From Elainella saxicola E1 (GTDB taxonomy: Bacteria; Cyanobacteriota; Cyanobacteriia; Elainellales; Elainellaceae), in NCBI GenBank assembly GCA_002796835.1, contig LUGL01000014.1, positions 1 to 64,000 on the forward strand: a DNA stretch of 64,000 nt, in the 5' to 3' direction. The notes under the pieces are model-generated. The model had not been told where the DNA came from and did no database searches. It saw nothing but the letters and a program-made list of their open reading frames with translations. Positions 526-62,549 of the stretch are shown one piece after another (position 1 is the stretch's first letter; every line of letters begins with the position of its first letter). The position numbers were made by a program, and so were the translations under genes.

Positions 526-1608
526 ATGGATATTCAATTTGCCTACTGGGCAACCAATTTAGGTGGATTAGTGTTTAGTCAAGTTCCTCAAAACACCGAT
601 TGGACCTTCCAATACAATGCCTGGTTAGCCCAAACTGCGGAAAATCTGGGCTTTGACTATACGCTAGTTGCCGCGCGGTTTATTCTGTCGTACGGCAAGG
701 GCGATCATCTTGAATCCCTGAGTACAACGGCTGCTTTGGCTGCTGTGACAAGGCGAATCAAGCTGATTTCAGCCATTCATCCCGGCTTATGGCATCCCGG
801 CGCAATTGCTAAGCTCGGCTCAACGATCGATCACATTTCCAATGGCCGATTTGGTGTGAATATTGTCAGTGGCTGGTTTCGCAAGGAATTTTACGCCTAT
901 GGAGAACCCTGGCTCGATCACGATGAACGCTATCGACGATCGGCAGAATTTATCCAGGTGCTCAAAGGACTGTGGACCCAGGAAGAGTTTTCGTTTGAAG
1001 GGGATTTCTACCGGATTCACGAAGCCTGGTTACAGCCCCGTTCTATTGCCCAACCCCATCCTGAAATTTTCCAGGGCGGCAATTCCAAGGCAGCCAGACA
1101 AATGGCGGCTCAATATTCCGACTGGTATTTCATGAATGGCAACACGGTCGAAGGGGCACGATCGCAAATTCAAGAAATCCTTGCCTTAGCTAAAGACTAT
1201 GGACGCCAACCTAAATTTGCAATCAATGCCTTTGTGATTGCACGAGACACAGAAAAGGAAGCAAAAGCCGAACTGGAGCACATTATCGCCAATGCAAATA
1301 CGGATGCCGTCACAGCCTTTGCCGATCAGATCAAAAATGCGGGTGCTTCCACCCAAGAACAAATTGGCATGTGGGCCAATTCAGATTTTGCTAATCTGGT
1401 TCAGCCCAATGATGGCTTCAAAACGGGGTTAATTGGCACAGCAGAACAGATCGCTGAAAAAATTCAGGCCTATTATGACGCGGGCGTCGATCTGATTCTC
1501 TGTGGCTTTTTGAATTACACAGATGAACTGCCAGAATTTGGGCGGCGTGTTATTCCTTTGGTGCGCCAAATTGACTCCCAACGTTTGCTCCTGGAAGAAG
1601 CGATTTAG
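526..1608 (+). CDS. sfnG: SfnG-type dimethylsulfone monooxygenase (LLM family)
   Basis: A 360-residue luciferase-like TIM-barrel monooxygenase. The known SfnG reaction is FMNH2-dependent oxidation of dimethylsulfone to methanesulfinate, a step in sulfur scavenging. Sequence marks that fit SfnG are FAYWATNLGGLVFS and NTDWTFQYN at the N-terminus, NIVSGWFRKEF and WLDHDERYRRS in the middle, and SDWYFMNGN and VQPNDGFKTGLIGT toward the end. Length matches the family. The ATG at 526 has no good Shine-Dalgarno sequence. It stands alone between the transposase edge and the permease train that starts at 1827, and no shared operator was found just upstream. A related alkanesulfonate monooxygenase is the alternative, but the SfnG-like blocks run the full length. 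Confidence 0.88.
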   Translation: MDIQFAYWATNLGGLVFSQVPQNTDWTFQYNAWLAQTAENLGFDYTLVAARFILSYGKGDHLESLSTTAALAAVTRRIKLISAIHPGLWHPGAIAKLGSTIDHISNGRFGVNIVSGWFRKEFYAYGEPWLDHDERYRRSAEFIQVLKGLWTQEEFSFEGDFYRIHEAWLQPRSIAQPHPEIFQGGNSKAARQMAAQYSDWYFMNGNTVEGARSQIQEILALAKDYGRQPKFAINAFVIARDTEKEAKAELEHIIANANTDAVTAFADQIKNAGASTQEQIGMWANSDFANLVQPNDGFKTGLIGTAEQIAEKIQAYYDAGVDLILCGFLNYTDELPEFGRRVIPLVRQIDSQRLLLEEAI

Positions 1609-1699
1609 CGATCGGATGCAATTCTGGAATTCCTACTTTTTCCTTAAGGCTCTTGTCTTGACCGGGGAGCTATGCAATAATTTTTGCAGCTAAAATCTA

Positions 1700-1721
1700 C
1701 GGTAAATTGATCGATTTTTAG
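1700..1721 (+). promoter_or_regulatory. Putative sulfur-island operator, copy 1
   Basis: The sequence CTACGGTAAATTGATCGATTT (CTAC begins at 1697) lies 106 bases before the APC permease start. It shares the CTACGGTAAAT core with the sites at 29063, 34971, 38290 and 50743. The right half ATTTTTAG is an imperfect mirror of CGGTAAAT with a 6-base spacer. The regulator is unknown; recurrence upstream of sulfur genes is the only support. Confidence 0.55.
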
Positions 1722-1826
1722 GTTTTTAATGCTCGGTTTCGCTGCTTGTGTGAACACTCGCTTCAGGTCTGGTCTACAACGCATCTTCAACAAAATTGAT
1801 TCTTATCCCGCTTCTCCTCAATTCCT

Positions 1827-3272
1827 ATGAGTGTACAAACCCCAAGAAAACGGATTGGTTCCGGTCTACGATCAGAATATTTGTCGTTTCCAGAAGTGTT
1901 AGCACAGTCGATCGCCAATATTGCTCCCACTGCCACCCCTGCATTCGTAATTCCGTTAGTTTATGCTTCTGCGGGAAATGGCACCTGGCTGGCCTATTTA
2001 ATTGCCACCGTTGGTTTGATTCTCATCAGCTTCAGCATCAATGAGTTTGCTCGCCATTCTGCCTCGGTGGGTTCACTTTATGCCTACATTGGCAAGGGTT
2101 TAGGACCGATCGTTGGCGTCATCGCAGGCTGGACCTTAGCAATTGCCTATCTCTTCACGGCAACTGCAGTGCTGCTGGGGTTTGTTAGCTATGGTGATAC
2201 GCTTTTTGGGACTAGTTCGCTGGGATTAACAGTATTTTTGGGGGCAACTGCCGCTGGAATTGCCTGGTGGATCGCTTACAAAGATATTAAGCTCTCAGCC
2301 AAATTGATGTTGGGTATTGAGTTAGTCTCTGCTGGACTGATTGTCTTGCTTGCATTAATTGTCTTAGTGCAAGAAGGATTTCAGATTGATGTCAGCCAAT
2401 TCACACTAGAAGGGGTATCGGCCGAGAACCTGCGGCTTGGCTTGGTGCTGGCTGTCTTTAGCTTTGTTGGGTTTGAAAGTGCCACTGCTCTGGGTGATGA
2501 GGCTAAGCATCCATTGCGATCGATTCCCCGTGCTGTACTGGCGAGCGTAATCATTCCAGGTCTTTTCTTTGTCCTCCTATCCTATACCGAAGTGTTGGGA
2601 TTCCGCAGCACAAACCTGAATTTGGGAGAGAGTGATGCGCCGTTATCCGTGTTGGCTGAGCAGGCTGGAATTGGTGGCTTTGGCATTTTGCTGTCGATTG
2701 GAGCTGCGATTAGCTTTTTTGCCTGTATTTTGGCATCGGTCAACGCGGGTTCCAGAATTTTGTTTGCCCTCAGCCGTCACGGAATATTGCATGCCAGGGT
2801 TGGGGCAGCCCATCAAATTAACGCTACGCCTCATATTGCCGTCACGCTCATTTCGATTTTGACTTTCATTATTCCAGTTGCATTGCTGGTTGCAGGCAAT
2901 GGAATTATGGATTCCTACGCCTATCTGGGCACGATCGCCACATTCGGATTCCTGACCGTCTATATTTTGATTGCGATTGCTGCACCCGTTTATCTCTACC
3001 GTCGCAATCAGCTTCAGGTTAAACATATTGTTGTTTCGGTTGTGGCCATCTTATTTATGTTGATTCCCCTGGTGGGCAGCCTCTATCCGATTCCTGCAGC
3101 TCCATACAATATCCTGCCCTATATCTTCCTAGCGCTGTTGTTGGCTGGGGCTATCTGGTTAGGCTCTGTTTGGCAGCGATCGCCGCAGGTGATTCAGGAC
3201 ATTGAGCAAGATTTAGAAGCGGTTAGCAGCCAATTTAGTGGAGTTTCTGAAGACGGACAGTCCCTTCTCTAA
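1827..3272 (+). CDS. APC-superfamily amino acid/amine permease
   Basis: A 481-residue polytopic membrane protein with about twelve hydrophobic segments, expected in the plasma membrane. The N-terminal FPEVLAQSIANIAPTATPAF and SFSINEFARHSASVGSLYAY regions are typical of the amino acid-polyamine-organocation family, where the unwound first helix binds the amino group of the substrate. Substrate cannot be read from the sequence. It is the first gene of the long plus-strand train and has a putative operator 106 bases upstream. It is followed after 73 bases by a glutamine-synthetase-like ligase. That pairing recalls amine import followed by gamma-glutamylation, but the link here is inference; a sulfur-containing amine or amino acid would fit the neighbours. 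Confidence 0.85.
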   Translation: MSVQTPRKRIGSGLRSEYLSFPEVLAQSIANIAPTATPAFVIPLVYASAGNGTWLAYLIATVGLILISFSINEFARHSASVGSLYAYIGKGLGPIVGVIAGWTLAIAYLFTATAVLLGFVSYGDTLFGTSSLGLTVFLGATAAGIAWWIAYKDIKLSAKLMLGIELVSAGLIVLLALIVLVQEGFQIDVSQFTLEGVSAENLRLGLVLAVFSFVGFESATALGDEAKHPLRSIPRAVLASVIIPGLFFVLLSYTEVLGFRSTNLNLGESDAPLSVLAEQAGIGGFGILLSIGAAISFFACILASVNAGSRILFALSRHGILHARVGAAHQINATPHIAVTLISILTFIIPVALLVAGNGIMDSYAYLGTIATFGFLTVYILIAIAAPVYLYRRNQLQVKHIVVSVVAILFMLIPLVGSLYPIPAAPYNILPYIFLALLLAGAIWLGSVWQRSPQVIQDIEQDLEAVSSQFSGVSEDGQSLL

Positions 3273-3345
3273 CCGAGTTGCATTCTCTCCTATCCAAAGC
3301 TAGTTTTTATCCCGTTAATCATCGATCTGTGCAAGGAGAATTCCA

Positions 3346-4737
3346 GTGGTTGCCATTGATATTCCGATTCACTCAAAATCTAGTCTTTCACCTGCCAGTG
3401 AAATTCATCGGTTAATTGAAAACGGAACGATCGAATTTATTCGGTTTGAACAATCGGATACCCACGGAATTGCGCGATCGAAAACGGTTCCCGTCCGTCA
3501 TTTTGAACGATTTGCGACCAAAGGACTAAATTTCCCGTTGCCCACCTTTGGTCTGGATGTACAGGGTGATACGGCACCCAATACGGGCGTGCTGGAAGAA
3601 ATTGTCTTTGGGGATGCCTATCTTTTCCCAGACATTAGCACGTTTCAAGTTTTGCCTTGGGTTGATAAAACGGCTCGTTTATTAGGTGAGCCCTACCATC
3701 TGGATGGGCGTCCGGTTACAGTTGCACCTCGCTATTTGGCCAAACGTCAATTGGCGGAATTAGAAGCTTTGGGCTATCAGCTACTGAGTGGCTATGAGTA
3801 TGAGTTTTATTTAGTCGATGCGGCGACTAGAAAGGCTTCTTACTCAGGCATTCAGCTCTTTGGCACTCTGCCACCTGCCGATCAGCCAGTCATCTATCAA
3901 ATTTTGCGATCGCTCTCATCCATTGGGGTAGATATCATCACGGCCGATCTGGAATATGCACCGGGACAAATTGAAATTAACTTTGCGCCAGGTTGGGGAA
4001 TCGATGGGGCCGATCGTGCCTTTACCTTCAAAAATACGATCAAGGAAATCGCTCAGCAACATGGCAAAATTGCTTCTTTCATGACGAAGCCGGATATCAA
4101 TCTCAGCGCAAATGGATGCCATTTCAATCAATCCCTTTGGGATGGAGAACGGAATGCTTTATTTGATCCCAGTCGAGAACATGGACTGTCAGAGGTAGGT
4201 GCCCATTATATTGCGGGCCAATTGGCCCATGCCCCCGCTTTAACAGCTTTACTCTCTCCGACCATCAACTGCTGGAAACGATTTAAGCCCAACGCATTTG
4301 CCCCCACGAACATCACCTGGGGCATTGATAACCGGACAACTGCGATCCGATTTAAGGCGTTCCAGGATGAGCGCACCTACATCGAAAATCGCTTAGGCAG
4401 CGGTGCTGCAAATCCTTACCTTGTATTAGCCGCACTGGTTGCAGCAGGCATTGATGGCATCAAACGCCAACTCGAACTTTCTGCTCCCATTCAAGTCGTT
4501 GCTGATGGATTACCCGATGTTCCCCAACTGCCCACTCATTTTGAAGCCGCCTTGCATGCCTTAGAACAAGATACGGTGATTCGGGAAGCGTTGGGAGAAG
4601 AATTTATTCAGCTCTTTACTTCCCTGAAAAAATACGAGATTGAGAAAGCCAGAAAAGCGATTCCCGACTACGGAACTCCTGAGTTCTCCGATCGCATAGA
4701 CGATTGGGAAATCCGCGAATTTTTTGAGCCATTGTAA
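3346..4737 (+). CDS. Glutamine-synthetase-like ligase (gamma-glutamylamine type)
   Basis: A 463-residue protein of the glutamine synthetase fold. The N-terminal beta-grasp part contains FIRFEQSDTHGIARSKTVP. The catalytic barrel contains GYEYEFYLVD (metal and ATP glutamate), YAPGQIEINF, GCHFNQSLWD (in place of the usual GSGMHxHxSL) and NCWKRFKPNAFAP. These match the GlnA-like/PuuA group, in which many members ligate glutamate to amines and not to ammonia. The GTG at 3346 is chosen because AAGGAG lies 7 bases upstream. Its place between an APC permease and sfnB suggests it acts on the imported compound; the true acceptor is unknown. Real glutamine synthetase is unlikely given the altered histidine block. 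Confidence 0.82.
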   Translation: MVAIDIPIHSKSSLSPASEIHRLIENGTIEFIRFEQSDTHGIARSKTVPVRHFERFATKGLNFPLPTFGLDVQGDTAPNTGVLEEIVFGDAYLFPDISTFQVLPWVDKTARLLGEPYHLDGRPVTVAPRYLAKRQLAELEALGYQLLSGYEYEFYLVDAATRKASYSGIQLFGTLPPADQPVIYQILRSLSSIGVDIITADLEYAPGQIEINFAPGWGIDGADRAFTFKNTIKEIAQQHGKIASFMTKPDINLSANGCHFNQSLWDGERNALFDPSREHGLSEVGAHYIAGQLAHAPALTALLSPTINCWKRFKPNAFAPTNITWGIDNRTTAIRFKAFQDERTYIENRLGSGAANPYLVLAALVAAGIDGIKRQLELSAPIQVVADGLPDVPQLPTHFEAALHALEQDTVIREALGEEFIQLFTSLKKYEIEKARKAIPDYGTPEFSDRIDDWEIREFFEPL

Positions 4738-4775
4738 GCCGAGCCACTGTAAGCTGCTTTTGCGATTTAGAATCT

Positions 4776-5978
4776 ATGACTTCGACTCTCCAACATGAAC
4801 GGCAAGCCCATATTATCCGCAGCGATGATGAAGCGATCGCCATTGCTCGCGATTTAGCGATCGAATTTGCCAAAGACGCCTCTGAACGCGATCGGGAACG
4901 ACGACTGCCGATCGAAGAAGTGCAGGCTTTTTCTGCGAGCGGCTTATGGGGAATTACCGTTCCGCAGGAATATGGTGGTGCTTTTGTTTCGCAGGTGACG
5001 CTGGCAGAAGTGATCAAGCTGATTGCTGAAGCCGATTCCAGTATCGGTCAAATTCCACAGAGCCACCTCTATTCCGTGGAAACCATTCGACTGGTTGGGA
5101 ACGAACAGCAGAAGCAGTTTTTCTTTGATCAGGTGCTTCAAGGCAAACGGTTCGGCAATGCTGCCACTGAGTTAGGTAAATCTTCTGTCGATATCCAAAC
5201 TCGGATCGATCGATCGGGCAATGGCTATGTGCTTAACGGTCGCAAGTTCTATTCCACAGGCGCTTTGTTGGCCGACTGGATTCCTGTGATCGCGAAAACA
5301 GAGGACGATCGAAAAGTGGTGGCGTTCGTTCCCAATGGGGCAGAAGGACTGACCTTGATTGACGACTGGTCCAGTTTTGGGCAACGGACTACGGCCAGCG
5401 GCACAACTGTTCTGGAAAATGTCTATGTGCCGGAAGAGCATGTTTTGCCTAACTATTTAGCCTATGAGTCTCCCACCGCATTAGGACCTTTTGCCCAAAT
5501 TATTCAGGCTGCTGTTGATGCAGGCATTGCCCGTGCTGCTCTCAAAGAGACAATTTATTTTGTGCGGAATCATACTCGTCCCTGGAGCGATAGTGGTGTA
5601 GAGCATGCCTATGAAGATCCACTTTTGATTTCCAGTTTTGGTCATCTGCAAATTGCAGTTCATGCCGCAGAAGCGCTTTTGCAGCGGGCTGGAGAAGTAT
5701 TAGATCAGGCCATTGCTAATCCCAATGAAACGACGGTTGCTGCTGCTTCGATCGCCGTTGCGGAAGCTAAGGTCTTAACCACCGAGGCAGCGTTGCAAAC
5801 GACCAATAAATTCTTTGAACTATCCGGCACGAAATCCACCTTACAGCAATTTAATTACGATCGCCATTGGCGGAATGCTCGCGCCCATACCCTGCATGAT
5901 CCGGTGCGCTGGAAATATTACGCGGTGGGGAATTACTACTTGAATCAGGTTTTGCCACCTCGGAATCCCTATCTTTAG
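4776..5978 (+). CDS. sfnB: SfnB-family sulfur-acquisition oxidoreductase, copy 1
   Basis: A 400-residue member of the acyl-CoA dehydrogenase fold, of the SfnB subgroup known from sulfone/sulfonate use. Family marks include ERDRERRLPIEEVQAFSASG, GLWGITVPQEYGGA, GNGYVLNGRKFYSTGAL, DDWSSFGQRTTASGTT and the C-terminal FNYDRHWRNARAHTLHDPVR. Such enzymes are thought to work as FMN-dependent monooxygenases on organosulfur compounds, as in the related DszC, and not as true acyl-CoA dehydrogenases. The substrate of SfnB itself is not settled. It lies 38 bases after the ligase and 11 bases before the TPR gene, so cotranscription is likely. A paralogue sits at 7759-8979. Confidence 0.85.
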   Translation: MTSTLQHERQAHIIRSDDEAIAIARDLAIEFAKDASERDRERRLPIEEVQAFSASGLWGITVPQEYGGAFVSQVTLAEVIKLIAEADSSIGQIPQSHLYSVETIRLVGNEQQKQFFFDQVLQGKRFGNAATELGKSSVDIQTRIDRSGNGYVLNGRKFYSTGALLADWIPVIAKTEDDRKVVAFVPNGAEGLTLIDDWSSFGQRTTASGTTVLENVYVPEEHVLPNYLAYESPTALGPFAQIIQAAVDAGIARAALKETIYFVRNHTRPWSDSGVEHAYEDPLLISSFGHLQIAVHAAEALLQRAGEVLDQAIANPNETTVAAASIAVAEAKVLTTEAALQTTNKFFELSGTKSTLQQFNYDRHWRNARAHTLHDPVRWKYYAVGNYYLNQVLPPRNPYL

Positions 5979-5989
5979 GAAAGTGACTC

Positions 5990-7189
5990 ATGCTAACGGA
6001 TGCCCAGGGGCTACCAGTATCGACAGACTCGCCTGAAGTCGTCACCTTGATCGATCGATTTACCGATCAGTTGCTGGGCTATGGCAATCAGCCAGAGATT
6101 ATCCTGAACGCGATCGATTTTGATCCGACTTGCGTACTTGCTAATGCTCATGTGGCTGCATTTTACCTGTTCGCTGAGGCGGCTAATTCAGTTGAGTTAG
6201 CAAGACCCTACTTACAAGCTGCTCAGAATCATCTTGCTGCGGCAACGGAAAGAGAACAGTGGTATGTCAAGGCGATTGCTGCTTGGGCTGAGGGTGATAT
6301 TCCAACGGCCTTAAGCTATCACGAAGCCCTGGCCGATCGCTGTCCTCGCGATTTAGTTTCAGCTCATATTGGTCAATATCACTATCTGTTTACGCAAGCC
6401 AGCAGTCAGGGGTTACTGCATCTGATCGAAAAGATCTTTCCAGCCAATCGTGAAAATCACTATGTTTATGGCATGTTGGCCTTTGCTTTAGAGCAAGCTC
6501 ATCGCCTGGAAGAAGCAGAGGCGGTTGGCCGGGAGGCTGTTCAGATCGATCGTCAGGATCCCTGGGCACATCATGCAGTTGCGCATGTCCTGGAAACACA
6601 GGGTAGAGCTGAGGACGGCATTGCCTGGATGGAATCTTTTGCAGAGACCTGGGAGAATTGTGGCTCTTTCTTGTGCCATAACTGGTGGCATCTCGCGCTT
6701 TATTACCTGAGACAAGATGATTTCGCGAAAGTACTGGAACTTTACGATCAAGAAATCTGGGGACGTGCGGTTAAAGATTACTTGCATTGTCAGATTAACG
6801 CGGTTGCGCTTTTAATTAAGCTGGAGCTGAAGGGAGTGGATGTTGGCGATCGGTGGTTGGAGCTTGCCCCCTATTTACTCCAGCAAATTCATCCGCACAT
6901 TCTGCCGCTTGCAGATTTACATATCATTTATGGCTTGGTGCGTTCTGAAAATTTTGAACAGGCCAATCTCATGCTAGAAAGCATTGCCTCCTATGCCACT
7001 CACGCAGCCCAGAAAAAACTGTGGGCAGATACGGTCTTGCCGGTTGCAAAAAGTATGGTTGCCCATGCGAAGGGCGATCGATCGAAAACGGTCGCGGAGA
7101 TAGAACCCGTTTTATCTCAATTACATCAGCTAGGTGGCAGCCATGCCCAGCGAGCCTTATTCAACCAGATTTACGCTGCCAGTCTTTGA
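5990..7189 (+). CDS. TPR protein, TTC38-like
   Basis: A 399-residue soluble protein made of helical repeats resembling the tetratricopeptide-38 family. Visible helix pairs include VYGMLAFALEQAHRLEEAEA, DPWAHHAVAHVLETQGRAEDGIAWM and the WWHLALYYLRQDDFAKVLELYD block; no catalytic motif or signal peptide is seen. AGGAA precedes the ATG by 7 bases, and it begins 11 bases after sfnB. TTC38-like proteins have no established biochemical role; the operon position suggests a scaffold or accessory part for the ligase/SfnB/OsmC set, which is inference only. Confidence 0.75.
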   Translation: MLTDAQGLPVSTDSPEVVTLIDRFTDQLLGYGNQPEIILNAIDFDPTCVLANAHVAAFYLFAEAANSVELARPYLQAAQNHLAAATEREQWYVKAIAAWAEGDIPTALSYHEALADRCPRDLVSAHIGQYHYLFTQASSQGLLHLIEKIFPANRENHYVYGMLAFALEQAHRLEEAEAVGREAVQIDRQDPWAHHAVAHVLETQGRAEDGIAWMESFAETWENCGSFLCHNWWHLALYYLRQDDFAKVLELYDQEIWGRAVKDYLHCQINAVALLIKLELKGVDVGDRWLELAPYLLQQIHPHILPLADLHIIYGLVRSENFEQANLMLESIASYATHAAQKKLWADTVLPVAKSMVAHAKGDRSKTVAEIEPVLSQLHQLGGSHAQRALFNQIYAASL

Positions 7190-7227
7190 TTAGTTCTCAT
7201 TAACCTCACACCCAAGGAGAATTCCCC

Positions 7228-7713
7228 ATGCCCGCTACGATTCAACCCAAAAGCAGCCTTGTCACCTTTCATCTACAATCTATTGGCAGTGGCGTTTCCC
7301 AAACCATTCAGCAGGAGGGATCGGTGCATACGATTCGAGTGGATGCCGCTCCTGTTTTTGGTGGAAAAGATGAGTATCCCAGCCCGATCGCCTATGCGCT
7401 GAGTGCGCTGATCTCTTGCTCTCAAGTCACAGCTCAATTGGTGGCAAAAGATCTGGGTTTAAAGCTCAACCAGTTTGAATTTGACATCAAAGCAACCCTG
7501 GATACCGCTATCCTAGTGAACGGTGCTTTAGAAGGGAATCCCAACTTTCAAACGATCGAACTTAATGCAATCGTTGATACAGACAGCACTGAGGCTCAAT
7601 TTGAACAATTGAGGCAAGAAACAGAACGTCGTTGCCCCATCTATCAGCTATTCCTCAGAAGCGGAGTTGCGATTACCAATCATTGGTCGATTCGTCATTC
7701 TGCACTTGTCTAA
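7228..7713 (+). CDS. OsmC-family protein
   Basis: A 161-residue OsmC/Ohr-type protein. Two conserved cysteines are visible, C64 in LISCSQVTAQLVAKDLG and C136 in ERRCPIYQLF, as in thiol-dependent peroxidases of this family. OsmC members reduce organic or fatty acid hydroperoxides, and some act as thiol hydrolases. The start is supported by AAGGAG 7-8 bases before ATG 7228. It sits between the TPR gene and the second sfnB, so it may protect against, or process, sulfenate or peroxide by-products of the flavin monooxygenases. That role is inferred from position. Confidence 0.82.
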   Translation: MPATIQPKSSLVTFHLQSIGSGVSQTIQQEGSVHTIRVDAAPVFGGKDEYPSPIAYALSALISCSQVTAQLVAKDLGLKLNQFEFDIKATLDTAILVNGALEGNPNFQTIELNAIVDTDSTEAQFEQLRQETERRCPIYQLFLRSGVAITNHWSIRHSALV

Positions 7714-7758
7714 AGTTGATTCTGCCTTCTATTCCGATCGCGTTCTATTTTGATTCCT

Positions 7759-8979
7759 ATGGTAACTACCAATCTCCCCGGCAAGATTGCGTCTGAACGA
7801 ACAGCCCATGTGATTATCAGCGATCAAGAAGCGATCGCCATCGCCCAGCAGTTAGCCACCGAATTTGCGCAGAACGCAGCAGAACGCGATCGGGACCGCA
7901 GGTTGCCCTATACGGAATTGGATCGGTTCTCTGCTAGCGGACTGTGGGGCATTACGGTTCCTCAGGAATATGGCGGAGCATTTGTGTCGAATGCCACGGT
8001 GGCAGAAGTGATCGCCACGATTGCCGCAGCAGATGGCAGCATTGGTCAAATTCCGCAGAATCACCTGTATATGGTGGAGGCAATCCGACTGAATGGAACC
8101 GAAGAACAGAAACAGCACTGGTTCAAATTGGTGCTGGAGGGAAAACGCTTTGGGAATGCTTTCTGTGAAGTGGGAACGAAAACCCCGGTTGCGTTCAAAA
8201 CTCGCGTGACTCGTCAAGATGATGGCTATATCCTGAATGGCAAAAAGTTCTACTCGACCGGCGCATTCTTTGCCGATGTTGTGCCCGTGGTAGCGCTTGA
8301 TGATGATGACAACGTGGTGGTTGTGTTTGTCGATCGCCATGCTGAAGGGTTAACGGTAATTGATGATTGGTCTGGAATCGGCCAACGCACAACCGCAAGC
8401 GGCACGACGATTCTCGAAAATGTGGTTGTTCAGGAACGTGATATTCTGCGACATTATCTGGCATTTGAACAACAGACAACTATGGGAGCTGTCGCTCAAA
8501 TCATTCATGCTGCCATTGATGTTGGAATTGCTCGTGGTGCTGCGCGAGATACCATCCAATTTGTCCGCAACTATACTCGCCCCTGGATTGAAACGGACTT
8601 TGAGCATGGCTATGAGGAACCCTTGATCATTTATGGGGTGGGTGAAATTCAAATTAAACTCCATGCTGCCGAAGCCTTACTCAAGCGTGCAGGTTTGTTC
8701 ATCGATCGAGCCATGGCTGATCCGACTGAACAACATGGAATGGAAGCGTCGATCGCAGTTGCCGAAGCCAAGGCTCTGGCCGATGAAGCCGCAATTTTCA
8801 TCACGAATAAACTGTTTGAACTGAGCGGCACTAAATCCACCTTGAGTCAATTTAACTACGATCGGCATTGGCGTAATGCTCGAACTCACACGTTGCATGA
8901 TCCCGTGCGCTGGAAGTATTTCAATATTGGCAATTACTTCCTCAATGGCGTGAATCCACCTCGTCATGGTGCTTTTTAA
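7759..8979 (+). CDS. sfnB: SfnB-family sulfur-acquisition oxidoreductase, copy 2
   Basis: A 406-residue paralogue of the gene at 4776, sharing the same blocks: ERDRDRRLPYTELDRFSASG, GLWGITVPQEYGGAFVS, ADGSIGQIPQNHLY, DGYILNGKKFYSTGAFF, DDWSGIGQRTTASGTT and FNYDRHWRNARTHTLHDPVR. I use ATG 7759 (MVTTNLPGKIA); the track's start at 7750 is a TTG three codons earlier. Two SfnB copies in one gene train probably serve different substrates. It lies 45 bases after osmC and is followed after 66 bases by the CmcJ/NvfI-like gene with its own strong ribosome binding site. Confidence 0.85.
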   Translation: MVTTNLPGKIASERTAHVIISDQEAIAIAQQLATEFAQNAAERDRDRRLPYTELDRFSASGLWGITVPQEYGGAFVSNATVAEVIATIAAADGSIGQIPQNHLYMVEAIRLNGTEEQKQHWFKLVLEGKRFGNAFCEVGTKTPVAFKTRVTRQDDGYILNGKKFYSTGAFFADVVPVVALDDDDNVVVVFVDRHAEGLTVIDDWSGIGQRTTASGTTILENVVVQERDILRHYLAFEQQTTMGAVAQIIHAAIDVGIARGAARDTIQFVRNYTRPWIETDFEHGYEEPLIIYGVGEIQIKLHAAEALLKRAGLFIDRAMADPTEQHGMEASIAVAEAKALADEAAIFITNKLFELSGTKSTLSQFNYDRHWRNARTHTLHDPVRWKYFNIGNYFLNGVNPPRHGAF

Positions 8980-9045
8980 GCTTGAAATGAGAGCAAACAT
9001 AACCTCTAACATTCAAATTGCAACTATGCCAAGGAGGCGTCAATA

Positions 9046-9909
9046 GTGAGTCAAACTAGCCAAGTCCTAGGTAGAGTGAATTCGATCGATCTACCCTTTG
9101 TTGAAGCCAACCTGACTTATCTGGTTCCACCCAAAGAGAAGCCCGTTAACTATACGTTTGAACCGCCTCCAGGTGTACCTCAGCGCAGTGGTATTCCTGA
9201 AGTCCATACCCTGCCAATTTATGATGCTCGATCGATCGCACCTGGTTTGTCGGTGGATCGGGAAGGATATGCGTTGCCGGATTATCCAACCGCAGTTCGA
9301 GATTTTTATGACGAAGCGGAAATTCGTCAGGTTTACTATTCTGAAGCGGAGCAGTTTTTGCAGGAATACACGGGTGCTGCCAGAGTCATCGTTTTTGATC
9401 ACATTGTTCGCAATGCTCAACGCGCACAGCCCGGTCGGAACACGATCCGAGAACCGGGGAAGATTGTTCACAACGACTTCACTGCCAATTCTGGCTATAC
9501 TCGCGGACAGCTCGTCCTGCAACTTCTGGGTGAATCAGATCCAGATGCATTACTGCAAAGACATTTCAGCATCATCAATATTTGGAGAGCGATCGCTGAT
9601 CCCATCCAAGAATCTCCCCTGGCAGTCTGTGATGCTCGCAGCATTGCGCCAACAGATTGGGTCGCCAGCGATCTGGTTTATCGCGATCGGGTGGGTGAAA
9701 CCTACGGGGTGACTTATAACCCGTCTCATCAATGGTTTTACTTCCCGTTCATGCATCGGGATCAGGCATTGCTGATTAAATGTTTTGATTCGGCAACCGA
9801 TGGCCGCGCCCGATTTTCGGCTCATTCTGCATTCGATGATCCCACCAGTCCTCCGAATGCTCCGCCGCGCGAAAGTATCGAACTCCGTACCTTGGTGTTT
9901 TACGAGTAA
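9046..9909 (+). CDS. CmcJ/NvfI-type Fe(II)/2-oxoglutarate oxygenase-like protein
   Basis: A 287-residue protein resembling the CmcJ/NvfI/AsaB group. The block KIVHNDFTANSGYT gives the H-x-D iron-ligand pair of 2-oxoglutarate-dependent oxygenases. NIWRAIADPIQESPLAVCDARSI is a characteristic family block, and the C-terminal HQWFYFPFMHRDQALLIKCFDS supplies candidate distal ligands. AAGGAGG at 9031-9037 fixes the GTG start at 9046. Members oxidise diverse natural products, so substrate cannot be assigned. It follows sfnB copy 2 and precedes a broken O-methyltransferase. Confidence 0.75.
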   Translation: MSQTSQVLGRVNSIDLPFVEANLTYLVPPKEKPVNYTFEPPPGVPQRSGIPEVHTLPIYDARSIAPGLSVDREGYALPDYPTAVRDFYDEAEIRQVYYSEAEQFLQEYTGAARVIVFDHIVRNAQRAQPGRNTIREPGKIVHNDFTANSGYTRGQLVLQLLGESDPDALLQRHFSIINIWRAIADPIQESPLAVCDARSIAPTDWVASDLVYRDRVGETYGVTYNPSHQWFYFPFMHRDQALLIKCFDSATDGRARFSAHSAFDDPTSPPNAPPRESIELRTLVFYE

Positions 9910-9920
9910 GGGAATTTTCC

Positions 9921-10592
9921 ATGTCTCAAGATCAATAGGCTGCGATCGACGATTACATTACTGAACTGTTTGTCCCGACGGACTCTGCCCTAGAAGCAAC
10001 GCTACAGTCTACGATCGATGCCGATTTACCTAAAATCAACGTTGCGCCGAACCAGGGAAAATTGCTCCAGATTCTAGCCCTCTCCCATCACGCCACCCGA
10101 ATTTTGGAGATTGGCACATTGGCAGGCTACAGCACAATCTGGTTGGCACGCGCATTACCCCAAAATGGCAAGCTGATCACGTTAGAGGCTAATCCGAAAC
10201 ATGCAGAGGTCGCTCGTGCCAATTTAAATCAGGCTGGACTAGAAGACACTGTGGAAATCCGGGTGGGTGCAGCGCTGGATACCTTACCTCAACTGGCTGC
10301 TGAAGGCCAAGCACCCTTCGATCTGGTTTTTATTGATGCAGATAAGGTGAATACGGCAGGTTATTTTGCCTGGGCGCTCAAGCTGACGCGACGCGGTAGT
10401 TTAATCATCACAGATAATGTTGTTCGCAAAGGAGGGGTGATTGATGCTACGAGTACTGACGAGAACGTTCAGGGAATTCGTCGCTTTAATGCTGCGTTAG
10501 CCTCGGAACCTCGTGTGACTGCAACTGTGGTTCAAACTGTTGGCAGCAAAGGACATGACGGATTAGCGATCGCGCTTGTGATCGCCGATTAA
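9921..10592 (+). pseudogene. O-methyltransferase interrupted by an early TAG stop
   Basis: The frame from ATG 9921 reads MSQDQ, then TAG at 9936-9938, then AAIDDYITELFVP and onward without another stop to 10592. Read through, it is 224 codons including the stop, the normal length for a caffeoyl-CoA-type class I O-methyltransferase. Related proteins begin MSQxQW, so the TAG is most simply a TGG (Trp) codon changed by one base. The downstream body is intact, with ILEIGTLAGYSTIWLARALP (SAM motif I), VTLEANPKHAE and FDLVFIDADKVNTAGYF (metal-binding block). The track's ORF begins at a TTG, 10062, which would remove the N-terminal helix. Options are a recent pseudogene, a sequencing error, or weak internal initiation. 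Confidence 0.75.
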
Positions 10593-10634
10593 TGGAACGT
10601 AGCGTACGAAACCATTTCTGCATTGAGAAAATAT

Positions 10635-11798
10635 ATGAATTCAAGACCATCTTTACGCTTTAAACCACAAAGTACGAATGTTCTGAGAAATTGGCTGTCG
10701 ATTAGCACGATCGCTCTATTAACTGCTTTGGCAGGTTGTGCTGCTTCAAATAATCAAAGTCAAACGGCGAGCAGTCCCGCAGCGAGTGCCAGTCCTGCGG
10801 CGAGCAGTCCCGCAGCCAGCGCCAGTCCGGTCCAGGTAGAACCAACGGGTTTACTGGCGCAGGTGCTCAGTCGCAGCAAAATTATTTGTGGCACAAGCGG
10901 GAAAGTTCCAGGCTTTAGTTTTGTCAACACGCAGGGTGAATACTCTGGATTTGATGTTGATATTTGTCGCGCAGTAGCCGTTGCAGTTTTCAATGATCCC
11001 AGCAAGGTAGAGTTTCGGCAATTGAGTGCGGCTCAGCGATTCACCTCATCACAAACAGGCAGCATTGATATTATTAGCCAAACTGCTACTGTGACAATTA
11101 GCCGTGAATCTACCGTTGGGGTTGCCTTTGGGCCTGTCATTCTCTATGACGGACAGGGATTAATGGTGAAGAAAAATAGTGGAATCACCAAAATTGAGCA
11201 ATTGGCCGGTAAGTCGGTTTGTGTGCAGACGGGTTCAACGACGATCCTCAATCTGACAGACCAGTTTCGTAAGCGAGGCATCGCCTATAAACCTGTTTCG
11301 TTTGATGATAACAACGCGACGTTTGCGGCTTATCAACAAGGTCGCTGTGAAGCGGTGACAGCCGATCGCTCTGGGTTAGTGTCGAATCGATCGAAACTCC
11401 CCAATCCCGATGAGCATACTATCTTAGATATCGTATTGTCTAAAGAGCCGCTCGCTCCTGGCGTGAAGCAAGGAGATCCACAGTGGGCTAATGTGTTGAA
11501 CTGGGTCGTCTATGTCTTGATTCAAGCCGATGAATTTGGGATTACTTCGAAAAATGTCGATCAAATTGCCCAGAGCACAAAAGATCCAGATATTCGACGT
11601 TTTCTAGGCTTGGAAGGAGATTTGGGTAAAGGGCTGGCCCTCAAGAATGATTATGCGCTACAGGTGATCAAACAAATTGGCAACTATAGCGAAGTGTACG
11701 ATCGCAACCTGGGCAAAGATTCTCCCCTCAAATTAGAGCGTGGTCCTAACAAACTCTGGACGGACGGAGGTTTGCTCTACTCTCCACCCTTCCGTTAA
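10635..11798 (+). CDS. General amino-acid ABC transporter binding lipoprotein (AapJ/BztA-like)
   Basis: A 387-residue periplasmic binding protein. ATG 10635 is preferred over TTG 10623; the N-terminus then reads as a lipoprotein signal, with TALAGC placing the lipid cysteine at about residue 35. An Ala/Ser/Pro-rich linker follows (about 40-72). The mature domain starts with VLSRSKIICGTSGKVPGFSF and continues YSGFDVDICRAVAVAVF, typical of the AapJ/BztA polar-amino-acid family. Two permease genes follow directly, but no ATPase gene is nearby, so it must borrow one. In this island the ligand could be a sulfur amino acid; that is inference. Confidence 0.87.
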   Translation: MNSRPSLRFKPQSTNVLRNWLSISTIALLTALAGCAASNNQSQTASSPAASASPAASSPAASASPVQVEPTGLLAQVLSRSKIICGTSGKVPGFSFVNTQGEYSGFDVDICRAVAVAVFNDPSKVEFRQLSAAQRFTSSQTGSIDIISQTATVTISRESTVGVAFGPVILYDGQGLMVKKNSGITKIEQLAGKSVCVQTGSTTILNLTDQFRKRGIAYKPVSFDDNNATFAAYQQGRCEAVTADRSGLVSNRSKLPNPDEHTILDIVLSKEPLAPGVKQGDPQWANVLNWVVYVLIQADEFGITSKNVDQIAQSTKDPDIRRFLGLEGDLGKGLALKNDYALQVIKQIGNYSEVYDRNLGKDSPLKLERGPNKLWTDGGLLYSPPFR

Positions 11799-11812
11799 TT
11801 GGGTCAGTTGTC

Positions 11813-12997
11813 ATGGCTATCCAAGTGTTTGGGTTTAAGAATGCCTTAGGACTGCTGCGAGATGTTCGCTTCTGGCGAATTGTGGGACAGCTTTTCTTTG
11901 TGCTTTTCCTGGTCTGGTTAGGCACAACCCTGTGGCATAACCTGACGCTCAATCTACAAAAAGCAGGTATTCAGATTGGACTGAATTTCATTCAATCCCA
12001 GGCCTCATTCGATATTGGCGAACGGATCATCACCTATAGCCCAACTGATAGTTTCGGTCGAGCATTATTTGTTGGATTCGTTAATACGTTGCGTGTGACG
12101 GGAATTGGAATGGTTCTTGCCACACTGTTGGGATTGGTGATCGGATTGGCTCGCTTATCCGACAATTGGTTGATTGAGCAACTTGCCAAGCTTTATGTGG
12201 AAGTCTTTCGCAATACCCCCCTGCTGTTGCAGCTGTTTTTCTGGTATTTTGCCGGATTTGCTAAACTGCCGTCGATTGACAGCAACACACCACCCTCCAG
12301 TTTATTTTACCTCACCAACCGTGGTTTAGCCCTCACCTGGGTTTCTGCCACTGCCGCCACTGGAATTTGGATTGGCCTATTAACTCTCGCTACCCTGATC
12401 GCGATCGGCCTATGGCAATGGCGACGATGGTTGAGAATTGAACGGGGTGTTGCTAGCCGCACCTGGCTCTGGGCTGGAGGGGCGATCGGTCTGGGGATAA
12501 TTCTCGCCTTTGCCATTACTCGCGCCAGTCCGTTTGAATGGAATGTGCCGCGACTCAATGCCACTGAGCTAGAAGGAGGATTACAGATTTCTCCAGAATT
12601 CACTTCCTTACTCCTGGGAGTGACTTTTTTCATTGCTAGCTTCATTGCTGAAATTGTTCGAGCTGGCATTCAATCGGTTCCTAAAGGGCAATGGGAAGCT
12701 GCTAAATCGCTGGGCCTGAAGCCAGGAGTGATGCTTTCCAAAGTGATTCTTCCCCAGGCCTTGCGGGTTATCATTCCGCCATTGACCAGCCAGTATCTTA
12801 ATTTAGCAAAAGGAACAAGCTTGGCGATTGCGATCGGCTATCCCGATATTTACTTTGTTGCAAACACAATTTTCAATCAAACTGGCCGTGTTGTTGAAGT
12901 GATGCTCATCCTGATGGCATCCTATCTCGGCGTCAACCTGATTATTTCTTTGATCATGAACCTGGTCAATTACAGTTTCCAGATTAAGGAACGATAG
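11813..12997 (+). CDS. Amino-acid ABC transporter permease 1 (AapQ/BztB-like)
   Basis: A 394-residue inner-membrane permease beginning 14 bases after the binding-protein gene. Hydrophobic segments are visible from residue 22 onward. VGFVNTLRVTGIGMVLATLLG is the start of the BPD transport domain, and the EAA loop is QWEAAKSLGLKPG, which contacts the ATPase. The long periplasmic insert between the first segments and the core, including LNFIQSQASFDIGERI, is typical of the AapQ/BztB group. It would pair with the next gene as a heterodimeric channel for polar amino acids. Confidence 0.88.
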   Translation: MAIQVFGFKNALGLLRDVRFWRIVGQLFFVLFLVWLGTTLWHNLTLNLQKAGIQIGLNFIQSQASFDIGERIITYSPTDSFGRALFVGFVNTLRVTGIGMVLATLLGLVIGLARLSDNWLIEQLAKLYVEVFRNTPLLLQLFFWYFAGFAKLPSIDSNTPPSSLFYLTNRGLALTWVSATAATGIWIGLLTLATLIAIGLWQWRRWLRIERGVASRTWLWAGGAIGLGIILAFAITRASPFEWNVPRLNATELEGGLQISPEFTSLLLGVTFFIASFIAEIVRAGIQSVPKGQWEAAKSLGLKPGVMLSKVILPQALRVIIPPLTSQYLNLAKGTSLAIAIGYPDIYFVANTIFNQTGRVVEVMLILMASYLGVNLIISLIMNLVNYSFQIKER

Positions 12998-13042
12998 CAT
13001 CATCTTGGTTTGTTCCCCCTCTTCCATCCCCTCTCCCTGCTC

Positions 13043-14251
13043 ATGTCTCTTGATCTTGCTCCTATCACCGACTCGCCGCCCGTTTCTACGTCACTCACCC
13101 CCTGGAATTGGGCTAGGAAACGGCTGTTCAATACCTGGTATAACATTATTCTGACTATTGCTGCACTGTTGGCGATCGGCCTGGGGCTCAAAGGCTTTCT
13201 AGTCTGGGCAACGACGCAAGCACAGTGGGCCGTTGTCAGCAACAATTTGAAGCTATTTGTTGCAGGGCGGTTTCCTGATCCCTTACTTTGGCGGCTCTGG
13301 ATAATTTTGGGCGTGATCATCGGCTTGAGCGGTTTGACTTGGGGGAAACTCCAGGCGAAGGAGCGACTCTGGACTCGCGATCGGTTGCTGATTGCAGCAG
13401 GAATTGCGGTGGCGATCGGTCTGATTCCCATAAGTTTTGCCTCGCGTTTGATTTCTGGCGGTTTGCTGCTGCTGCTCCTAGTTGCTTTCTGGCTGGGACG
13501 GTTGCTGCCCAGTCGGTTTAATCGCTGGCTGGCGGTGGCCTGGGCGCTCTCATTTCCGCTTGTGTTTTGGTTGCTGCGGGGAGGTTTTGGCCTGCAAGAA
13601 GTACAAACAACTGATTGGAGTGGTCTGTTGCTAACGCTTCTGGGAGCAGTGATTGGGATTGCCTTTGCTTTTCCGTTAGGCGTTCTGTTGGCGCTCGGTC
13701 GCCAGAGCACTTTGCCGATCGTTCGGCTTTTCTCTACGCTTTTCATTGAAGTGATGCGGGGGCTACCGTTGATTGGGGTTTTGTTTATTGGCCTGGTGAT
13801 GCTGCCGCTGCTGTTACCGCCAGAGTGGGGACAGCCTGATCAACTCCTGCGGGGACTGGTCGGATTAATCCTATTTAGTGCTGCCTATATTGCAGAAGTT
13901 GTGCGTGGCGGTTTGCAATCTGTTCCCAGAGGACAACTCGAAGCGGCGCGCGCTTTGGGACTGAATCCTCTGCTGGTGATTGGTTTGATTCTGCTACCGC
14001 AAGCCCTCAGAACAGTAATTCCGGCATTGGTGGGAGAATTTGTCAGCCTATTCAAAGAGACAACGCTGCTCTCTGTATTTGGTTTGATTGAGCTATTGGG
14101 CATTTCAGCTTCGATTTTGGCGAATCCAGATTACGTGGGCCGGTATGTTGAAGTGTATTTATTTGCAGGGGGCCTCTACTGGATTTTCTGTTACGTGATG
14201 TCGATCGCCAGCCAGCGTCTTGAAAACAGTTTGGGGGTCGATCAGCGTTAG
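13043..14251 (+). CDS. Amino-acid ABC transporter permease 2 (AapM/BztC-like)
   Basis: A 402-residue permease partner of the preceding gene. ATG 13043 (MSLDLAPITD) is chosen; the track's 13010 start is a TTG inside the spacer. Several hydrophobic helices precede the transport core, which contains TDWSGLLLTLLGAVIGIAFA, FIEVMRGLPLIGVLF and the EAA loop QLEAARALGLNPLLV. In other bacteria an AapP/BztD ATPase gene follows. Here the next gene is pncC on the opposite strand, so the set is missing its ATPase locally. Confidence 0.87.
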   Translation: MSLDLAPITDSPPVSTSLTPWNWARKRLFNTWYNIILTIAALLAIGLGLKGFLVWATTQAQWAVVSNNLKLFVAGRFPDPLLWRLWIILGVIIGLSGLTWGKLQAKERLWTRDRLLIAAGIAVAIGLIPISFASRLISGGLLLLLLVAFWLGRLLPSRFNRWLAVAWALSFPLVFWLLRGGFGLQEVQTTDWSGLLLTLLGAVIGIAFAFPLGVLLALGRQSTLPIVRLFSTLFIEVMRGLPLIGVLFIGLVMLPLLLPPEWGQPDQLLRGLVGLILFSAAYIAEVVRGGLQSVPRGQLEAARALGLNPLLVIGLILLPQALRTVIPALVGEFVSLFKETTLLSVFGLIELLGISASILANPDYVGRYVEVYLFAGGLYWIFCYVMSIASQRLENSLGVDQR

Positions 14252-21058: not shown

Positions 21059-21794
21059 GTATTTTGACGCATATGTAAAGAGAATAAAATAAAACCTAAA
21101 ATGAATTTAAGTCGTTTCATCAAAAGCAGAAAAAGAGAATGAAAATTTAAATAAAATAAAATAAGGCTTTAAAGACCACCTTCAAACATCCGAATCGATC
21201 GTTTGGTCGATCAAATTGTTGAATTCCAAATGATTGAATTTAGGTTGTCATAAGCCGCTGCAAAGTGTCGGTCGTCCAGAATACACTCTTAGATGACTCG
21301 ATAGTCAGCTAGGAGTGGAGGCTTGCTTTCTCCAGCCAAGTATGCGATACTCCTTTTCAACCTAAAATACGGTAACTTTATCGATGAACCGTATTTAGAG
21401 GCAGGCACGGATCTGGTACATCAACCCAGTGGAGTCGGACTCTAGCGCCAGTAACTGTTTTATTCCCGTCTAAATCTCAGAATCAACATGATGATTTTTG
21501 ACGATCCCCTTAGTTAGGATTTCGAGGGATAAGGTTACTGGTTTGCTAGTTTCTATTGACTGGGCATATCTATTAAGTGCACTGATTACCTGACTGGAAT
21601 GGTCATCGAATTCGAGTCATTCAAGCGTTTGTGATGGCTAGAAGTTAACTGTGGCGTATATTTATCGAGTTCACATTTGTTGGCCAGTTTCACGAAGCAT
21701 AACTTTGCCACAGAGAAGTTGTGGTGGCTAGGAAGCAGGAATTAAGGGATTTCAAGATTTAGGGAAAATCTTAACTTTGTAGAGGAACCGAATT
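21059..21794. other. Long divergent intergenic region
   Basis: A 736-base region between the desaturase-like gene and the amidohydrolase. The left end (21060-21180) is very AT-rich. A palindrome related to the island operator sits at 21365-21396. Nothing else with clear coding or RNA character was seen; AGAGGAA at 21781-21787 is the ribosome binding site of the amidohydrolase. Confidence 0.5.
21365..21396. promoter_or_regulatory. Palindromic operator-like site in long intergenic region
   Basis: AAATACGGT and ACCGTATTT form 9-bp perfect arms 14 bases apart. The inner part CGGTAACT-N6-ATGAACCG has the spacing and outer bases of CGGTAAAT-N6-ATTTACCG. It lies 399 bases before the amidohydrolase start and 307 bases before the desaturase-like start, so the target is unclear. 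Confidence 0.45.
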
Positions 21795-28937: not shown

Positions 28938-29062
28938 GTTTATGATGTAATTCATTGATGCAATGATTAACATCCTATTCCTGATTGCGAGTTGCAAAAT
29001 ACAACAAATATTTTTGCTTGTTTTTTACAGGCAATTATGTAATACTCGCTATTGTTAATCTA

Positions 29063-29084
29063 CGGTAAATCGGTAGATTTAAAG
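29063..29084 (+). promoter_or_regulatory. Putative sulfur-island operator, copy 2
   Basis: AATCTACGGTAAATCGGTAG continues into ATTTAAAG. The core is CGGTAAAT-N6-ATTTAAAG; the same bases also read as AATCTAC-N9-GTAGATT. It lies 118 bases before the LLM start at 29202. Confidence 0.65.
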
Positions 29085-29201
29085 TATTTTTTAACAAAAG
29101 TTAGTGATACCCTGATTCAATGCGACGTTCTATCTCTGCAATTGGTTAGTCACCTCTATTCATCTTGGACTGAACTCATCTTGAACTTAACAAGGTCGCT
29201 T

Positions 29202-34909: not shown

Positions 34910-34970
34910 ATTCTTGATCTGCTTGTTTCGCTGCTGCCAGCGACTGAAGGGGACAAGCTGAAATTATATC

Positions 34971-34992
34971 CGGTAAATTGACCGATTTACCG
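34971..34992. promoter_or_regulatory. Putative sulfur-island operator, perfect palindrome
   Basis: CGGTAAATTGACCGATTTACCG is an exact inverted repeat, CGGTAAAT-N6-ATTTACCG, followed by TAG. It lies between the divergent ASST-like gene (start 34909) and the MFS gene (start 35034). It is the best symmetrical copy and defines the dyad reading of the motif. Confidence 0.7.
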
Positions 34993-35033
34993 TAGTATTA
35001 TGAATATGGCTCAGGTAGCATAGGAGGCCACGG

Positions 35034-37935: not shown

Positions 37936-38498
37936 TAGTCATCCCTCCTGGCGAGGTACAGCGATTTAATATTGGGTGTGAAAGTAAAGTGTGCTAATGA
38001 GAATATGCTCAATTATGACCCCGAATACTGAAAGAGAAAGTATTCTCAACAACTTTGGCAATGATTGTAAAGGAAAAGTTAAGAAATAACATAGAAGGCT
38101 GAGCAAGCAGACTGGTGCGGAGCGGATTGACCGACAAAAGTACCAAAAAAACGCATTCTACTGTAGGTATCGGTTTTACAGAAAGTGATTTGGGCAACAA
38201 AAAAGCAGTTCGCAGCGATTTTTTTATCCATTTTTGTTAGAAATTCCTTGATTTCTACAGAGGTTCATGAGATTATTTTGCTTAATCTACGGTAAATCGG
38301 TCGATATACAGATATTAACTATTTAGGTTTGTTGATTCATCTTTCTGGACTGTAAAAAGGTATAGCTTTTCTCAATGAATTGAATAGGTTTTGGTTGGAT
38401 GAACAGAAGTATTTGAGATTACAAAAAGACCGCCATCAATTTTTAACTCATTAATTCGAGCGTATTTTGCAAACAGCAGGTTTCTTGGGTCAAATTTT
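37936..38498. other. Intergenic region upstream of met operon
   Basis: A 563-base divergent region between uspA and metQ copy 1. The operator at 38290-38311 is the only structure I can support. The rest is AT-rich, and the 63-codon ORF at 38009-38200 looks like chance. Confidence 0.55.
38290..38311 (+). promoter_or_regulatory. Putative sulfur-island operator, copy 3
   Basis: AATCTACGGTAAATCGGTCG continues into ATATACAG. The 15-base CTACGGTAAATCGGT is identical to that at 29060. It lies 188 bases before metQ copy 1. Confidence 0.65.
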
Positions 38499-39392: not shown

Positions 39393-39432
39393 ATCTTATG
39401 AATGGCAAAGCATATTGCTGGAGAGTGACCCG

Positions 39433-41129: not shown

Positions 41130-41165
41130 TGGTTGCAGTTTTTGAGGTGTGAGACTGGTTCAGGT

Positions 41166-62462: not shown

Positions 62463-62549
62463 AGTCAATCTCCTATCCTAATTTCCAATCGAGTCCGTTA
62501 ATTGGGCAGCATCGCCTTTCAGCTCCTTGTGGATCCGAAGGACAGCCCC

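Follow-up and report, generated by a model that had tools for sequence, protein, structure and literature searches.

Several described bacterial systems resemble, each in part, a train of genes that we analysed in the cyanobacterium Elainella saxicola E1. The train lies on a stretch of 64,000 nucleotides (contig LUGL01000014.1), referred to as the window; the genome is labelled G000 and the contig of the window C74. One such system is the assimilation of dimethylsulfide (DMS), dimethylsulfoxide (DMSO) and dimethylsulfone by Acinetobacter baylyi ADP1 and Pseudomonas (dms1-dms2-dms3, sfnG, msuC, msuD, msuE). In A. baylyi, Dms1 and Dms2, which are encoded side by side and share the fold class of SfnB, oxidise DMS to DMSO and the latter to dimethyl sulfone, on which SfnG then acts (PMC13352529; PMC8234197). 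The sulfur monooxygenases of ADP1 are redundant and promiscuous (PMC13352529).

The Elainella locus likewise has SfnG beside flavin monooxygenases of the acyl-CoA-dehydrogenase fold, two of them in one operon, a likeness judged by fold class; a flavin reductase encoded elsewhere in the genome is a further shared feature. Unlike the ADP1 and Pseudomonas systems, the train adds a permease, a glutamine-synthetase-like ligase, a tetratricopeptide repeat (TPR) protein, an OsmC protein, a CmcJ-type oxygenase and an amino-acid importer, and the operator here is palindromic, with no sfnR-type regulator recognised in the window. Clusters on rhizobial plasmids, in which a luciferase-like monooxygenase (LLM) gene is followed by two SfnB genes, with ssuD, also bring two SfnB genes together with sulfur monooxygenases. 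There, however, the SfnB genes are directly adjacent and come without the permease-ligase pair, whereas the TPR and OsmC genes stand between them in the train. The permease-ligase pair itself recalls gamma-glutamylation of the Puu type (permease, ligase, oxidase, dehydrogenase, hydrolase; IpuC included), with an APC permease beside a glutamine-synthetase-like ligase, but the train has no recognisable hydrolase, amine oxidase or aldehyde dehydrogenase. At its end, a binding protein followed by two large permeases repeats the order of the Anabaena N-II transporter NatFGH-BgtA, the sequence comparison having been made with a second set in the Elainella genome, on contig C60. Three of the four parts are present in the train, which has no ATPase gene, whereas the C60 set is complete. 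Finally, the ytmI operon of Bacillus subtilis serves cysteine salvage with N-acetyl protection. It is alike in its amino-acid importer, its amine protection and its flavin monooxygenases acting on sulfur, a likeness of parts, and differs in that the amine is acetylated there and would be glutamylated here.

The gene train and its proposed function

With moderate confidence we read the whole train (1827-14251) as a sulfur-limitation operon under a 26-bp palindromic operator, through which sulfur would be scavenged from small organosulfur molecules, some of them amino-bearing, because copies of this operator also stand before organosulfur genes, both here and in other cyanobacteria. That the train belongs to the regulon of this operator is very likely. 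Support is weaker for one common route by which its products would import, glutamylate and oxidise a sulfur amine, and we rate this as less likely than not. The train joins two modules that are found apart in relatives, namely the permease-ligase pair and a sulfone/thioether module (SfnG, SfnB, OsmC).

A first-pass annotation, made from the sequence alone, had described eight genes at 1827-10592. All eight plus-strand open reading frames (ORFs) lie there, with the families and short gaps it gave, but the train runs on to 14251 by three genes, one for a binding protein of family 3 and two for permeases of the ABC type, which makes eleven genes in one direction, and the methyltransferase frame is interrupted. 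The gaps among the eight ORFs are 73, 38, 11, 38, 45, 66 and 32 bp, the last being measured from the end of the CmcJ gene to 9942, the first codons past the in-frame stop of the methyltransferase; gaps of 30, 14 and 12 bp lead into the importer genes. The sfnG gene lies 5' of the train and is set apart by a gap of 218 bp that holds a promoter-like element and the operator, and is thus probably transcribed on its own. No terminator-like match falls in a gap of the train, the total number of matches being at chance level (16 against 16.3 in shuffles). As the gaps are tight, contain no terminator and follow an operator common to other sulfur loci, the sequence supports reading 1827-14251 as one transcript under the operator at 1700. 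The annotation had proposed such a transcript for its eight genes, and the operator on which it relied is borne out by the palindrome counts given below.

The component families and the general theme are known. In the searchable literature, outside which most subscription journals lie, we found no account of the combination, of the operator or of a link between the TPR family and sulfur. That literature held nothing relevant on a cyanobacterial sulfur operator or on OsmC in sulfur limitation, and within it the annotators' statement that no described pathway has this combination stands. Among the genomes and loci compared, the full gene combination was not found beyond this genome.

A palindromic operator shared by organosulfur genes

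The operator consensus is the 26-bp palindrome TACGGTAAATCGATCGATTTACCGTA. Searched as CGGTAAAT-N6-ATTTACCG with up to 3 mismatches, it occurs five times in the window, where 0.14 occurrences are expected (cores at 1700, 21370, 29063, 34971 and 38290, that at 34971 being perfect). The whole genome holds the palindrome at 47 places, against 26 for a reversed control, and the best copies are concentrated in sulfur loci on contigs C27, C59, C74 and C180. When the spacer was varied across the window and six further loci of this genome, only the 6-bp spacer stood out, with 17 sites where each other spacer gave 0-2; since these six loci had been picked for holding sites, the contrast between spacers is the informative part of this test. 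A matrix built from the 17 sites matched 86 places in 619 kb of other cyanobacterial loci, compared with 3.3 in shuffled sequence. The loci were gathered around homologues of the train genes and are not a random sample, so that the 86 sites are not a genome-wide rate. The genes 3' of these sites are mostly those for SsuA, TauD, SfnG, LLM flavin monooxygenases, glutathione S-transferase (GST)-CmcJ and TPR proteins. No matrix site scoring at least 18 was found in 377 kb of non-cyanobacterial loci. Within the Elainella genome, SfnG, TPR and OsmC each have a second family member behind the operator.

Such a distribution might also arise from a regulon island in which independent sulfur tools, each with its own substrate, sit behind one operator: SfnB and SfnG would act on DMS, DMSO and sulfone, while a different sulfur compound would be the substrate of CmcJ and a free amine that of the permease and ligase. 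Indeed, numerous genes for LLM monooxygenases, MetQ, TauD and SsuA make the entire window a sulfur island, the train genes are separate in other genomes and yet often stand behind the same operator, and redundant, promiscuous monooxygenases are a feature of ADP1. Selection for joint expression is rather suggested by the tight spacing of 11-73 bp and by the way in which the permease-ligase pair has been inserted, intact, at the front, and we regard the island explanation as a tentative one only.

An extended -10 pattern, TRTGn(n)ATAMT, chosen after inspecting the sequences, stands before 11 of 36 operators, where shuffled sequence gave 0.16. A stricter two-element pattern was found at only one of the 36, and TANNNT, present upstream of 25 of 37 operators, did not differ significantly from the mean of 20.6 in shuffled sequence. 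As the operators follow an extended -10-like element, regulation is probably exerted by a repressor that is seated just 3' of the -10 element and would leave when sulfur is scarce. The sites have LysR-SsuA fusions near them in some genomes and a Crp-like protein or TetR proteins in others, none of these being a consistent neighbour. The fusions, of about 680 amino acids, join a LysR DNA-binding domain to an SsuA/NMT1-like substrate-binding domain and adjoin sulfone genes (L022:14003-16048 on contig C180 of G000, and loci L075, L077, L078 and L079); a role as cytosolic sulfonate sensor is possible. A Crp/Fnr-type protein is a candidate regulator found in operator-bearing sulfur loci of two genomes (L098:1286-1873 on C180 of G000, and L021:11968-12642), with 45% identity between the two.

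The sulfur module

Both SfnB proteins exceed the cut-off of TIGR04022 and SfnG that of TIGR04021 (Table 1). The closest solved relatives of SfnB are DszC and the methanesulfinate monooxygenase MsuC. As tandem enzymes of the same fold class also oxidise DMS and DMSO, these relationships support S-oxidation as the predicted role of SfnB. Of the four parts of a DMS/dimethylsulfone pathway, three are encoded in the genome, namely SfnG, group D S-oxygenases and a flavin reductase, the fourth being a sulfonate-cleaving MsuD or SsuD; an SsuE flavin reductase (235 bits, cut-off 164) lies on C180, adjoining an sfnG paralogue. In a scan of eight LLM proteins of the window for SsuD, seven fell below every SsuD cut-off and the eighth is SfnG.

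In a tree, SfnB1 clusters with cyanobacterial SfnB proteins linked to sfnG (support 98/97) and SfnB2 falls outside that clade. The two belong to different lineages, which rules out a recent tandem duplication. In five other cyanobacteria SfnB and sfnG adjoin or lie close to one another, and an LLM gene and a LysR-SsuA-like fusion often accompany them. A genome of the same family (G009) carries the run transporter-sfnG-sfnG-OsmC-LLM behind two operators, its OsmC being 77% identical to that of the train. An Aeromicrobium metagenome-assembled genome places OsmC between a DszC/SfnB-like gene, which at 253 bits stays under the SfnB cut-off, and an SfnB gene, which passes it at 461 bits; LLM and MetQ-like genes come next. 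Two operator sites, at 9158 and 9333, immediately precede the second Elainella OsmC gene, on C27. In the OsmC alignment C136 is invariant and C64 is absent from the Chlorobiaceae members. The OsmC loci of Gordonia and Rhodococcus were set aside as a guide, there being no tight sulfur cluster in them.

The amine module

The ligase retains the residues that bind metal, ATP and glutamate. Relative to GlnA from its own genome it has lost the aspartate of the ammonium site, and phenylalanine replaces the glutamate of the flap, as an amine ligase would show; the flap residue is also aromatic in IpuC and in most relatives of the ligase. No equivalog cut-off was reached, the model for gamma-glutamylputrescine synthetase (NF045547) giving 270.9 bits against 650. 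In four relatives (G015, G021, G023, G028) a homologue of the permease (52-55% identity) adjoins one of the ligase (40-42%). Two PhyH dioxygenase genes lie upstream in these loci (L148, L149, L150, L152), one of the two being read with a frame shift in G023, and the opposite strand carries a class-I amidotransferase gene. In a fifth genome (G018, locus L151) the ligase and PhyH genes occur but the permease is missing, and the loci of G021 and G018 also contain an aldehyde dehydrogenase gene. These loci look like a Puu-type glutamylation pathway with Fe(II)/2-oxoglutarate dioxygenases, possibly an undescribed one. The ligase of the window forms a deeper branch grouped with those of the relatives (support 96/92). 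Because the pair adjoins in four relatives beside amidotransferase and PhyH genes, and because the ligase lacks the ammonia-site residues, the comparison supports a putative pair for amine uptake and glutamylation.

The recurrence of this pair in loci with class-I amidotransferase, PhyH oxygenase and aldehyde dehydrogenase genes could be taken to mean that the train as a whole is a Puu-type operon for nitrogen or amine catabolism, with the SfnB proteins as dehydrogenases of the glutamylated amine. We consider this quite improbable: the SfnB proteins score far over the sulfur-acquisition cut-off and have S-oxygenases as solved relatives, the operator is that of sulfur genes, and neither an amidotransferase nor an aldehyde dehydrogenase was recognised in the train.

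Two further leads on the ligase were dropped. A strict search of the phylum (E <= 1e-90, few candidates scored per genome) had suggested that no other genome has the ligase; when the family was searched less strictly, relatives of 38-42% identity turned up in 10 of 36 genomes, and the apparent uniqueness is due to the threshold and to sampling. Ligase relatives on plasmids of Thermomicrobium and Rhizobium had no sulfur context.

A possible route for sulfur amines

For the sulfur-limitation operon that we favour, the order of the genes, their families, the shared operator, the two modules of the relatives and the altered ligase residues are observed, whereas the substrate, the order of the reactions, the direction of regulation and the roles of OsmC and the TPR protein are all things that we infer. 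The amine would enter through the APC permease and the NatFGH-type importer, the latter using an ATPase encoded elsewhere, and the ligase would capture it as a gamma-glutamyl amide. SfnB1 and SfnB2 could then carry out an FMNH2-dependent oxidation of the thioether or sulfoxide sulfur, and the CmcJ-type oxygenase, SfnG and other flavin monooxygenases a further C-H or C-S oxidation yielding sulfinate or sulfite. OsmC might deal with reactive thiol or peroxide by-products. The first-pass annotation had sketched a similar order. Its import and glutamylation of an amine is backed by the four relatives and by the lost ammonia-site residues, and of its S- or C-oxidation by SfnB, S-oxidation agrees with DszC, MsuC, Dms1 and Dms2. 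Its reading is supported in part, S-oxidation and the glutamylation of an amine both being plausible. It had overlooked the importer at the end, sfnG as the front part of the module, the methyltransferase stop and the width of the regulon.

Several points weigh against this proposal. The permease-ligase loci of the relatives have neither the operator nor sulfur genes, so that the pair may serve nitrogen and not sulfur. A gamma-glutamyl hydrolase (class-I amidotransferase), present in those loci, is absent among the annotated genes of the train, which leaves the release of the product unexplained. The precedent of the known glutamine-synthetase-like amine ligases does not make any sulfur amine an established substrate. 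Moreover, the complete train was seen in one genome only, and the operator at 1700, with its 3 mismatches, is among the weaker copies.

If the proposal is true, some cyanobacteria run a coordinated programme that mines organic sulfur from thioethers, sulfones and sulfonates, and its named control site can be searched for in any genome. The operator also makes uncharacterised genes (TPR, OsmC, CmcJ, PhnD-like binding protein) testable as sulfur genes. Should the permease-ligase pair take part in this route, glutamylation would provide a means, so far undescribed, of obtaining sulfur from amines.

The TPR protein

Outside the window, the TPR gene has 21 homologues in cyanobacteria, including a paralogue in the same genome. 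A site with up to 3 mismatches lies within 700 bp upstream of 9 of the 21, and one with up to 4 mismatches upstream of 16, whereas permuted palindromes gave means of 0.07 and 0.74, respectively; one gene in this count (locus L010, cut short) was measured at the wrong place, and sites do lie upstream of it. The Pseudanabaena homologue has an operator site 80 bp upstream. Although the operator precedes the TPR gene in other cyanobacteria, the train does not surround it there, and we discarded TPR neighbourhoods as a guide to the train. A PhnD-like binding protein is recurrently encoded beside the cyanobacterial TPR gene (adjoining in L016, L019, L020, L021 and L127; near in L105, L106, L114 and L115), with an operator-like site of its own in several loci.

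Invariant in 28 TPR sequences from cyanobacteria, alphaproteobacteria and actinobacteria are two HxxxH motifs (195/199 and 230/234), E89, D121, E168 and a C-terminal G382-G383-S384. A single-sequence structure model, weak at a mean pLDDT of 64.7, places the four histidines on two helices. We presume that the protein resembles the TTC38/StaR-like TPR group. It could conceivably be a metal-dependent enzyme at the core of a cyanobacterial sulfur-limitation regulon that, with the ligase and the SfnB pair, would perform a glutamylation-dependent desulfurisation of sulfur amines; we think this unlikely.

The distal genes

The CmcJ/NvfI oxygenase keeps the HxD...H iron ligands in an alignment to NvfI. 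Of 386 cyanobacterial genomes, 10 have relatives with 61-70% identity, and these 10 belong to a single Nostocaceae-like family, where the CmcJ gene is often near TauD, SsuA, GST or LLM genes and the operator often stands before it or before a preceding GST gene. In Burkholderiales, LLM, TauD, ssu or CysB genes are near CmcJ relatives in three of the loci compared. The family takes its names from members of cephamycin (CmcJ) and meroterpenoid (NvfI) biosynthesis, and a small biosynthetic cluster, in which the oxygenase, the O-methyltransferase and the glutamine-synthetase-like ligase make a modified amine, would be in keeping with that. We give this very little credence, as no scaffold-building enzyme was recognised among the train genes, a stop codon breaks the frame of the methyltransferase and the Nostocaceae and Burkholderiales relatives often have sulfur genes of the TauD, SsuA or LLM kind nearby.

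From ATG 9921 the methyltransferase frame meets its TAG at codon 6 and is open thereafter, the next in-frame ATG, GTG or TTG start being TTG 10062. A relative of 65% identity (G176) has tryptophan at the TAG position. The frame may be a recent pseudogene, encode a shortened protein from TTG 10062 or reflect an assembly error. The importer genes that follow resemble the NatF-NatG-NatH genes of the C60 set (47-49% identity). On the plus strand no ATPase gene comes after the importer permeases, whereas one follows the C60 set. In Anabaena the BgtA ATPase is common to two transport systems (PMC4500139).

Features of the window

Table 1. Positions of the train, the operator copies and sfnG in the window, with the basis of each assignment.
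Feature	Position	Strand	Basis
sfnG, dimethylsulfone monooxygenase	526..1608	+	TIGR04021 539.2 bits vs cut-off 382.95
Promoter-like element TTGTCT-17-AATAAT, TG before -10	1653..1681	+	sequence pattern
Operator, 26-bp palindrome copy, core 1700-1721, 3 mismatches	1698..1723	+	palindrome scan
APC-family amino acid/amine permease	1827..3272	+	PF00324/PF13520; AA_permease 106 bits
Glutamine-synthetase-like gamma-glutamyl ligase, probably amine ligase	3346..4737	+	PF00120 (Gln-synt_C) 306 bits
SfnB1, flavin-dependent S-oxygenase family	4776..5978	+	TIGR04022 630.7 bits vs cut-off 430.9
TPR protein	5990..7189	+	weak Pfam TPR matches only
OsmC-family protein, cysteines C64 and C136	7228..7713	+	PF02566 63.5 bits vs 27.5
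SfnB2	7759..8979	+	TIGR04022 618.2 bits vs cut-off 430.9
CmcJ/NvfI-family Fe(II)/2-oxoglutarate oxygenase	9046..9909	+	NF041278 318.9 bits vs 80
Class I-type O-methyltransferase frame, in-frame TAG 9936-9938	9921..10592	+	PF01596 143 bits vs 22
NatF-like periplasmic amino-acid-binding protein, family 3	10623..11798	+	PF00497; 49-52% identity to second copy at G000:C60
NatG-like ABC permease	11813..12997	+	47% to C60 copy
NatH-like ABC permease	13010..14251	+	48% to C60 copy
Operator copy before amidohydrolase-like gene at 21795	21368..21393	+	palindrome scan
Operator copy before/at start of flavin monooxygenase (about 29052-30251)	29061..29086	+	palindrome scan
Operator copy, perfect core, before MFS transporter at 35034	34969..34994	+	palindrome scan
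Operator copy before MetQ-like gene at 38499	38288..38313	+	palindrome scan

Transposase-like sequence lies near both ends of the contig, at 1-430 of the window and on C74 beyond 64000 (L104:10700-11923); the island may be mobile, or the assembly may be broken at repeats. Within the sulfur island, 54786-55889 encodes a chlorophyll-binding antenna protein of the IsiA/Pcb-like type (TIGR03041, 482 bits, cut-off 335). Two similar proteins of about 275 amino acids, at 30293-31114 and 61632-62468, are each encoded next to an LLM monooxygenase gene. Four MetQ-like binding proteins, one MetN and one MetI are encoded at 38499-42056, 45373-46272 and 62550-63491, a set that suggests several methionine-type or organosulfur import substrates.

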